IMG/VR virus record: IMGVR_UViG_3300013131_000312
Coordinates: 1-20,254 of that record
Source: a virus
Length of the DNA stretch: 20,254 nucleotides
Strand: one strand, 5' to 3'
Below the pieces are notes generated by a model that ran no database searches, was not told the origin of the DNA, and was given only the letters and a program-made list of their open reading frames with translations. Positions 9,636-11,438 of the stretch are shown here, one piece after another. Position 1 is the first letter of the stretch. Each line of letters opens with the position of its first letter. A program made the position numbers and the translations under genes.

Positions 9636-9847
9636 TCTGTGTAATCTCTTTCAATAATCATTTCACAATAATGTATTGCTTTTTTTATATCTGCTAACTT
9701 ACCTTTGTCTTGATGTCGTGTTACATATTTAATTACATTTCCCTCTGCAAACAGTAATTTATTTTTATTTATATATTGTGAGGGTTGAATGGCATGCTTT
9801 TTATAATGAACACCGCCAACTTGTCTAAAGAGAGTTTTATTTGTCAT
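9632..9847 (-). CDS. DUF3310 family protein
   Basis: 71 aa with the defining pattern VGGVHYKK, IQPSQYI, EGNVIKYVTRH and DIKKAIHYCEMII. This family is widespread in phages, often next to nucleotide-metabolism or replication genes, and is sometimes annotated as a nucleotide kinase without firm proof. The start overlaps the methyltransferase-like gene by 11 bases and the stop overlaps the polymerase ATG (ATGA). Its length is normal for the minimal family member. Confidence 0.88.
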   Translation of the reverse strand: MTNKTLFRQVGGVHYKKHAIQPSQYINKNKLLFAEGNVIKYVTRHQDKGKLADIKKAIHYCEMIIERDYTE

Positions 9848-10292
9848 TTTTTATTTCTACTGTAGCTATTGTATCATTATGCTGACTTCCGTGAGCAATT
9901 AACATTATTCTCGATAATTTGAAACCATATTTTTTTCCAATTCCATTACTATTCCATCCAAAACAAATTACTTTACCATTTGTTTTAGTAATTCTAGAAA
10001 TTTCTTTTTTACAATTCGACCAATAAGATGCATTAAAATTATCTAATGAAATTCCTGCATTTTTATACTTTGTTTTTAATTGATAAGAAGAATACGGAGG
10101 ATCAAAAACTAAAGCATTAATACTATTTGTCGTTATTGTTTTTAGATATTGTATAGCATCCTGTTTAAATGGATAAGGAAAAGGATCGATATAATCAGAA
10201 CCAAGTTCTTCATTTATTAGTTTTTTTAATGGTTTAATTGTAAATGTTTTATGACTAGGCATAGACCAATATCTTTCAATTTTTATTTTCAT
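9837..10292 (-). CDS. Adenine methyltransferase-like phage protein
   Basis: 151 aa. It has the catalytic DPPY motif of N6-adenine (and N4-cytosine) methyltransferases at 64-67 (LVFDPPYSSYQL), followed by SYWSNCKKEISRIT, GKVICFGWNSNGIG and a C-terminal LSRIMLIAHGSQHNDTIATV. This compact type is familiar from phage genomes. The cofactor-binding FxGxG motif is not apparent, so the protein is either a circularly arranged or minimal methyltransferase, or has lost activity. The N-terminal MPSHKTFTIKPLKKLI block is typical of this subgroup. No matching restriction enzyme lies in the window; the usual role would be self-protection or regulation of phage DNA. Confidence 0.8.
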   Translation of the reverse strand: MKIKIERYWSMPSHKTFTIKPLKKLINEELGSDYIDPFPYPFKQDAIQYLKTITTNSINALVFDPPYSSYQLKTKYKNAGISLDNFNASYWSNCKKEISRITKTNGKVICFGWNSNGIGKKYGFKLSRIMLIAHGSQHNDTIATVEIKNDK

Positions 10293-10413
10293 ACAAATAA
10301 GTAATTTTTGGCTTATATTTTTTATGATATTCGTCCCTTATAATTCTTAATCTTTTACACATTAATTGAAGTATTTTCAAACGTTTTTTTAATCGTTTTA
10401 ATTCTTTCTTCAT
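10276..10413 (-). CDS. 45-aa basic coiled-coil-like peptide
   Basis: MKKELKRLKKRLKILQLMCK followed by RLRIIRDEYHKKYKPK: leucine/isoleucine heptads in an extremely basic helix. It begins in the ATGA overlap with the cytosine methyltransferase stop and ends 17 bases inside the next gene. Compact packing supports translation. It could bind DNA or RNA; no family is recognised. Confidence 0.5.
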   Translation of the reverse strand: MKKELKRLKKRLKILQLMCKRLRIIRDEYHKKYKPKITYLYENKN

Positions 10414-11438
10414 AATTTTTCCGCTGTTAAAATTGCAAAACCTATTTCTCTAACTATTTGTGGCACGATAGAGTTTCCTAATGATTTTAATCTTTCGTTT
10501 CTATTTCTGTCCATCCGAGTGGATACCCCATCAGGAATTCTACAAATTCTGGATTGAGTCTGCCACCAACTTTCTCTTGTTTCATCATGACCACTCCTGA
10601 TAAAATACTTTTCTCCGCCATTCTTTTGTAATTTGTATTCTGACCTGTGTCTTTCCAATCTCTTGCTGTTGGAGTTGGAAACATGTTCATCGCGTCTCGT
10701 AGTTTTACTCCCCATCTGACACCTTTCTTGTTCTCTCGAAAGAAATGACCATCCTTCAACTGCACATCTTTTGCTATTCCACCCTCCGAGTCCGATGCTG
10801 TTGGAGTTGGATACATGTTCACTACGGGTTTGCCGTATTGAATTTGTTCCGCTAAATTTCCCGGTGGAACTGTTACCCTTCCAATACTTGTTCTGTATTT
10901 TTTTCTTCTCTCCATCGCTTCCTTTGATCTTGTTCCAATGTCCGTTGCTGTCGGAGTAAGCCATAATCCAGATTCGTTTTCTTTGGTGCCAAGCACCGAC
11001 GCCTGCAGCTGGAATAACAATACATTGGACTTCGAAACCCGCTTCTTCCAAATCAGTTTGCACCTGTTTGAGCACCACGCCGTTGTTGATGTTAATAAGC
11101 CCTTCAACGTTTTCGCCAATAAACCATCGGGGCTTACATTCTCTAATGACTCTAATAGTTTCATCCCAGAGATATCGATCGTCATCTGTTCCTTTTCTTT
11201 TTCCTGCAACACTGAATGGTTGGCAAGGGAATCCTCCACTGATAATGTCCGCTTGATATTTTTCTCCTTTAACATTTCGTATATCTCCTTCTATTGTTAT
11301 ATTTGGCCAATGTTTTTTCAAAACTTTTTGACAAAATTCACTTTTCTCCACAAAAGCAATTGTTTTAAAACCACCTGTCGATTCTAATCCTAAACTAAAT
11401 CCTCCAATCCCTGAAAATAAATCTAATAATCTTAACAT
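10410..11438 (-). CDS. dcm: DNA (cytosine-5-)-methyltransferase
   Basis: 342 aa. Methylates cytosine C5 in DNA. Motif I DLFSGIGG (6-13), motif IV GGFPCQPFSVAG (68-79) with nucleophile C72, motif VI ENV (109-111), motif VIII QRKRIW (152-157), target-recognition region about 165-300, and motif X LGNSIVPQ near 320. All catalytic motifs are intact. The target-recognition region carries repeated SNSNS blocks (HVSNSNSIGL and HVSNSNSKRL) and is low in complexity because the same bases are also open in a second frame (10487-11275). No restriction endonuclease is adjacent, so it is an orphan enzyme probably protecting phage DNA. The start forms TAATG with the helicase stop. Confidence 0.93.
   Translation of the reverse strand: MLRLLDLFSGIGGFSLGLESTGGFKTIAFVEKSEFCQKVLKKHWPNITIEGDIRNVKGEKYQADIISGGFPCQPFSVAGKRKGTDDDRYLWDETIRVIRECKPRWFIGENVEGLININNGVVLKQVQTDLEEAGFEVQCIVIPAAGVGAWHQRKRIWIMAYSDSNGHWNKIKGSDGEKKKIQNKYWKGNSSTGKFSGTNSIRQTRSEHVSNSNSIGLGGWNSKRCAVEGWSFLSREQERCQMGSKTTRRDEHVSNSNSKRLERHRSEYKLQKNGGEKYFIRSGHDETRESWWQTQSRICRIPDGVSTRMDRNRNERLKSLGNSIVPQIVREIGFAILTAEKL
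10487..11275 (-). CDS. Overlapping second-frame gene inside dcm (LPTPTA/LMGYP family)
   Basis: A 262-codon frame lying entirely inside the methyltransferase gene, shifted one base downstream. It does not look like noise: SPDGLLAKTLK, CKLIWKK, VLLFQLQAS, KENESGLWLTPTATD, then MYPTPTASDSEGG, MFPTPTARDWKD, and a C-terminal GGRLNPEFVEFLMGYPLGWT. I know this series (FQL, T-E-x-ESGL-PTP, PTPTA-D repeats, LNP-FVE-LMG-P-GW) from free-standing phage and prophage proteins found near cytosine methyltransferases, function unknown. The motif-VIII bases GAWHQRKRIW give the GTKENESGLW block in this frame. ATG at 11275 has no clear ribosome site of its own. It may be a true overprinted gene, or a segment reached by frameshifting from dcm. 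Confidence 0.55.
   Translation of the reverse strand: MLKEKNIKRTLSVEDSLANHSVLQEKEKEQMTIDISGMKLLESLENVSPDGLLAKTLKGLLTSTTAWCSNRCKLIWKKRVSKSNVLLFQLQASVLGTKENESGLWLTPTATDIGTRSKEAMERRKKYRTSIGRVTVPPGNLAEQIQYGKPVVNMYPTPTASDSEGGIAKDVQLKDGHFFRENKKGVRWGVKLRDAMNMFPTPTARDWKDTGQNTNYKRMAEKSILSGVVMMKQEKVGGRLNPEFVEFLMGYPLGWTEIETKD
10665..10822 (-). repeat. Intragenic direct repeat in dcm target-recognition region
   Basis: GCTGTTGGAGTTGGA-ACATGTTCA-type 26-mers at 10665-10690 and 10797-10822 agree at 24 positions. A weaker third copy (GCTGTCGGAGTAAGCC) lies near 10948. In the dcm frame they encode HVSNSNS; in the second frame MFPTPTA and MYPTPTA. Confidence 0.65.

Follow-up and report, generated by a model that had tools for sequence, protein, structure and literature searches.

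The window, i.e. the whole stretch of 20,254 nucleotides analysed here, comes from one uncultured virus. Its minus strand carries a C5-cytosine methyltransferase gene (dcm, called alpha below) of 342 aa at 10410..11438 and, nested in it, an overlapping open reading frame of 262 codons (ORF2, or beta) at 10487..11275, exactly where a sequence-only reading of the same DNA had placed a second gene. The ORF2 start is offset by 163 nt from that of dcm (11438), i.e. it lies in the +1 frame. It corresponds to dcm residue 55 and precedes motif IV, so that the overlap begins earlier than that reading had it (from around motif IV). The pair is surrounded by phage replication genes (DNA polymerase, helicases, primase and exonuclease) and by a second methyltransferase of the DPPY type. 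The latter, located just downstream of alpha (9837-10292, minus strand; 151 aa; phrog_11619, E 2.4e-29), is possibly N-terminally short and represents a second modification enzyme of the same module. A set of 73 flanking proteins consists mainly of phage genes and other methyltransferases, and no restriction-enzyme neighbour occurs among the 25 commonest families listed for them.

Alpha matches the profiles PF00145 (E 9.1e-54; 183.5 bits for a cut-off of 22), TIGR00675 (E 9.9e-49) and phrog_363 (E 3.1e-77). Its motifs follow in the order I (DLFSGIGG), IV (PCQPFS), VI (ENV), VIII (QRKRIW) and X (LGNSIVPQ). Motif X, identified in alignments that include M.HhaI, reads LGNSIVPQIVREIGFAIL (10419..10484, minus strand) and begins just 3' of the beta stop codon. 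The LGN block near the dcm end, previously taken for motif IX, is this motif X. Neither inspection nor profile comparison revealed a recognisable motif IX in alpha, where the region ahead of LGN reads RIPDGVSTRMDRNRN. The short canonical motif IX profile, run against alpha and beta, is too short to discriminate. Judged by these matches and motifs, alpha is a C5-methyltransferase homologue, though not a complete one.

ORF2 is matched by phrog_1008 (E 1.4e-33; residues 10-259 on profile positions 39-282 of 329). This match and the conservation of the double coding described below agree with the claim that both frames encode conserved proteins. Neither Pfam nor NCBIfam gave a match at cut-off, and no HNH domain was identified in ORF2 with PHROG, Pfam and NCBIfam profiles. 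From N- to C-terminus, beta is composed of an N-terminal half (10961..11275) that overprints alpha motifs IV-VIII, a series of PTPTA modules and a motif IX block, GGRLNPEFVEFLMGYPLGWT (10508..10567), all on the minus strand. As had been noticed before, ORF2 translates the motif VIII bases (QRKRIWI) as ENESGLW, and wherever dcm has an SNSNS block the other frame has a PTPTA block. The first module, LTPTATD (10940..10960, minus strand), overlaps the end of alpha motif VIII and YSDSNG; the second, YPTPTASD (10790..10813, minus strand), is SNSNSIG in alpha and the third, FPTPTARD (10658..10681, minus strand), is SNSNSKR.

The sequence AGAAGGAGATATACGAA, read as EGDIR in alpha, precedes the ORF2 ATG at 11275. 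It includes a strong ribosome-binding site, GAAGGAG (11285..11291, minus strand, within alpha EGDI), with a spacing of 9 nt. An internal start accompanied by a 6-base Shine-Dalgarno sequence is found at 47% of 153 loci, compared to 9% expected from synonymous shuffles (z 17.6). Since these start signals belong to ORF2 itself and are enriched over shuffles, internal initiation of ORF2 appears likelier than frameshifting.

The second frame is longer than chance would predict, as the sequence-only reading had supposed. When alpha was shuffled synonymously with protein and codon usage kept fixed (n=2000), the longest +1 frame had a mean of 81 and a maximum of 199 codons for 267 observed. The same shuffle applied to seven other phage methyltransferase genes gave p values from 0 to 0.0035. 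Shuffled alpha genes still average about 20-90 bits against the ORF2 profile; part of the resemblance is passive and a shuffle control is therefore needed. ORF2 scores 306 bits against this family profile, which was built from nine sequences including that of the window, and the best of 200 synonymous shuffles scores 125. All of the 41 loci examined in this way, 40 of which lie outside the profile, score above all 200 shuffles each (minimum z 7.9). When beta is shuffled synonymously, alpha acquires 9.7 stops on average; the constraint between the frames is thus mutual.

Divergence at the codon positions leads to the same view. For pairs with 65-97% alpha identity, the ratio of third to first position divergence falls from 2.16 and 2.23 at the two ends outside the overlap to 1.28 across motifs IV-VIII and to 0.64 in the recognition region. 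A second frame under constraint should leave just such a suppression because alpha third positions are beta second positions, and the comparison of variation per frame in related dcm genes, suggested with the original observation, thus speaks for ORF2. Within the recognition region the conservation of beta (68%) exceeds that of alpha (57.5%). ORF2 is a real, selected gene and both frames are under selection.

Two origins of the frame were considered and rejected: a chance open frame, by the shuffle tests and the codon-position divergence, and a general tendency of C5 genes toward an open +1 frame, by controls that were mostly null (27 of 33 canonical and other complete C5-methyltransferases carry no +1 frame beyond chance, p<0.05). 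A second +1 ORF family was nevertheless observed in complete monomeric C5-methyltransferases (L174:1598-2023, L179:1457-1876, L229, L231 and L237; Streptococcus phage MM1 ORF14, P0091_40 and Bacillota). Its members have 141-165 codons and end like CSLSDILEEEVDEKYFLS; those of L174 and L231 share 44% identity (E 3e-22). Their shuffle p values range from 0 to 0.013 and the host methyltransferases form one clade (99/97). The +1 ORFs of such genes need not be subunits.

ORF2 is widespread. A tblastn search identified 90 phage records, and a profile scan gave 80 loci in viral contigs and another 80 in bacterial genomes of many phyla, including Bacillota, Bacteroidota, Pseudomonadota, Chloroflexota, Chlorobiota and Actinomycetota. 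Of 299 Bacillota genomes sampled, 4 have ORF2 and 73 have C5-methyltransferases. ORF2 is in phase +1 of the methyltransferase frame at 87 of the 87 viral or phage loci tested, a count that leaves out L039, whose frames are broken. Stops in the second frame of homologous dcm genes, which would have argued against a second gene, are absent from all 87. The overlap has a median length of 266 codons and reaches 541. Bacterial loci (about 80 of 80) have both frames open in the same phase, with few exceptions: alpha has isolated stops in L122 and L135 and a broken frame in L167, and L139 is arranged differently. On one chromosome of a Roseovarius MAG (OX638333.1) the nested pair is present in five near-identical copies (L142-L146). 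The number of PTPTA modules varies from 0 to 6 across the family. In L086 (2378-4000) and L052 (2468-3739), overlaps of 541 and 424 codons have both frames open and contain repeated PTPTA modules, which may correspond to tandem recognition modules as in multispecific methyltransferases.

Free-standing phage homologues of ORF2 had been mentioned in the sequence-only reading. None turned up in the 80 viral loci, in the 80 from genomes or in plasmids and phages: the relatives inspected, about 170, all overlap a C5-methyltransferase frame. In records annotating only ORF2 or neither gene (L001, L255 and L256) the alpha frame is still present, and single-frame database entries look like annotation choices. 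In L001 (2273-3216) the annotators called ORF2 the methyltransferase; there the alpha N-terminus and the remainder occupy different frames, with a break near 2395-2533 that corresponds either to a sequencing error or to a real frameshift.

The nature of beta is best approached through relatives in which the same region is read in frame. Mycobacteriophage Starcevich gp69 and its relatives carry LLPTPxA modules and the block LxPxFxEWMMGWPxGW in the methyltransferase frame, ahead of motif X. Motif IX of these in-frame homologues lies about 30 residues ahead of GN, as in M.HhaI, where it reads RKLHPRECARVMGYPDSY in the aligned entry some 30 residues ahead of GN. The beta block aligns with motif IX of the in-frame monomers with an hhalign probability of 96% (E 2e-9); its alignment with the canonical motif IX (LTPREaARLQGFPDdF) is in the same register and weak alone (probability 15%). 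The AF2 model of one mycobacteriophage monomer matches M.HhaI from end to end (Z 23.5, 3.2 A, 232 residues), with the PTP modules unresolved. The link between the two blocks, together with this match, suggests that ORF2 holds the VIII-to-X content of a one-piece enzyme. In some alphas, only 64-79 residues separate motifs VIII and X, which leaves little room for a recognition domain. The PTP modules are predicted to be disordered even within the in-frame monomer and their role in recognition is putative. Beta modelled by itself with AF2 gave a poor, low-confidence structure (pLDDT 63, pTM 0.36), for which no fold match was found.

Three arrangements can be distinguished: nested pairs of the window type, in-frame monomers and splits resembling M.AquI. 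The N-terminal half of ORF2 is selected in the nested forms (the window type; L172, z 7.1; L173, z 3.7). It is not selected in the AquI-like splits of actinophages, where the overlap is short, and in 12 of 13 in-frame monomers its z does not exceed 1.3, the exception being L201 with 2.4. Selection on the N-terminal half thus goes with a recognition region in the +1 frame, a rule that is not perfect since L175, a nested form, shows no such selection. In L139, L177, L180, L209 and L210, alpha ends past motif VIII and the +1 frame holds both IX and X; the enzyme is complete there only with the +1 product. In the tree of motifs I-VIII the nested, in-frame and AquI-like forms make up one group (86/99) apart from the canonical enzymes, a grouping that is partly due to the choice of sample because ORF2 served to find its bacterial and viral members. 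The arrangements are interleaved within it: L210 stands beside L196, and L139 (2266-3565), whose ORF2 frame continues through IX and X, lies within the nested group among the window-type genes.

These observations suggest that one stretch of DNA encodes a two-subunit C5-cytosine DNA methyltransferase. Alpha, in frame 0, would be the catalytic core with the AdoMet and catalytic motifs I-VIII, and would obtain motif X through translation that continues across the overlap. Beta, initiated separately at 11275, would supply the small-domain parts absent from alpha, namely the target-recognition region with its PTPTA modules and motif IX. The two may assemble into one active enzyme methylating phage DNA, with specificity residing in beta; this methylation probably serves to evade host restriction. 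We give a probability of roughly three in four to ORF2 being the beta subunit (target recognition and motif IX) of such a split C5-methyltransferase active as a heterodimer. A broader statement seems reasonably likely, if somewhat less so: a large and old phage and prophage clade would consist of obligate heterodimers in which the gene of the catalytic subunit also encodes, in a second frame, the specificity subunit. The recognition region would have moved between frames, giving in-frame monomer, AquI-like split and nested pair, and database entries with one complete enzyme would show half of it.

ORF2 might instead encode an independent overprinted protein (a regulator, chaperone or anti-host factor) that shares its DNA with a complete methyltransferase. 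The second +1 ORF family, which lies over complete monomeric enzymes of streptococcal phages and Bacillota, provides a precedent, and AF2 gives ORF2 no enzyme-like fold. However, ORF2 has a methyltransferase motif IX and modules that related methyltransferases hold in frame, alpha lacks motif IX, and selection on the N-terminal half is tied to the presence of the recognition region in the +1 frame. We regard such an independent function as unlikely. A split enzyme, with its recognition region and motif IX in the second frame, also accounts better than a programmed frameshift for the relation between the frames. The sequence-only reading had proposed that dcm is translated by frameshifting into ORF2, giving a methyltransferase with a swapped specificity domain. 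One shift past motif VIII would indeed join all motifs in relatives such as L139, L177 and L180. In the window, a product shifted into ORF2 would lack motif X unless it shifted a second time. Moreover ORF2 has its own start with a strong ribosome site and overprints motifs IV-VIII with selected sequence, so that a fusion would lose catalytic motifs. This makes frameshifting very improbable.

It could also be argued that the second frame is a by-product, the constrained dcm motifs happening to read as similar +1 peptides. The bits retained by shuffled alphas show how far such passive similarity can go, but the observed scores exceed every shuffle in each of the 41 loci, the overlap shows suppressed divergence at third positions and beta is the better conserved product in the recognition region. 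The by-product explanation is already contradicted by these selection tests and hardly deserves credence.

Fully nested pairs on the same strand, of 200-540 codons and conserved across phyla, are rare. Because beta is absent from Pfam and NCBIfam, annotation pipelines skip it. If beta is required, many annotated single-gene phage cytosine methyltransferases would seem inactive when cloned in codon-optimised form, since a recoded alpha no longer encodes beta, and attempts to predict specificity from alpha by itself would fail. The family also allows a protein region to be tracked between reading frames across living relatives.

Direct homologues of ORF2 are annotated as nested genes in the Paenibacillus phages Rani (gp51 in gp50) and Tadhana (gp55 in gp54), where the internal genes are labelled hypothetical or second methyltransferase. 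No prior report of the nested pair was found in the literature searched. The monomeric mycobacteriophage C5-methyltransferases (Starcevich gp69, L184-L208) share the LLPTPxA modules and the LxPxFxEWMMGWPxGW block with ORF2 but differ from the window in having a single frame that ends in motif X and no selected +1 N-terminal half. A hidden HNH endonuclease ORF located out of frame inside phage methylases has been described for ShiLan (PMC11855218). The latter is an inserted homing element, whereas ORF2 is neither an insertion nor an HNH protein: a ShiLan-type insertion was rejected since ORF2 has no HNH match and overlies the conserved methyltransferase motifs themselves. The methyltransferase gp107 of mycobacteriophage Hannaconda (L176:1920-2552) does contain an HNH-like ORF in another frame, similar to the ShiLan element (PMC11855218).

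The closest known systems are two-polypeptide enzymes. In 1995 Lee et al. reportedly found that the beta polypeptide of M.EcoHK31I is translated from a different frame of the alpha gene. A search for the M.EcoHK31I genes in E. coli genomes and plasmids by way of N15 gp58 and a gammaproteobacterial relative returned only prophage or plasmid orphan methyltransferases. M.AquI has an alpha subunit with motifs I-VIII and a second subunit with motif IX, motif X and the distal recognition region (PMC3404938). The window pair resembles it as a split C5 enzyme with motif IX on the second subunit, but in the window motif X belongs to alpha, past the beta stop. IX and X occur together on the second polypeptide in L139, L180, L209 and L210; L139, L177 and L180 are AquI-like in this respect but overlapping. 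M.EcoHK31I (YGGCCR) is likewise made of two polypeptides: motifs I-VIII and X belong to the larger and motif IX to the smaller (PMC3404938), which is the distribution observed in the window. It differs in that the window pair belongs to a phage, has no known restriction enzyme alongside and includes a 262-aa beta carrying PTPTA modules. The recognition domain of M.EcoHK31I was predicted in the large subunit, which counts against the placement in beta proposed for the window. By motif layout, the window pair is therefore of the two-polypeptide C5 kind. The double-coded gene is of a known kind, far wider than the characterised case and spread over phages and bacteria of many phyla; what seems new is this breadth, along with the strength of the double coding, a connection with in-frame monomers and the fact that beta is unannotated.
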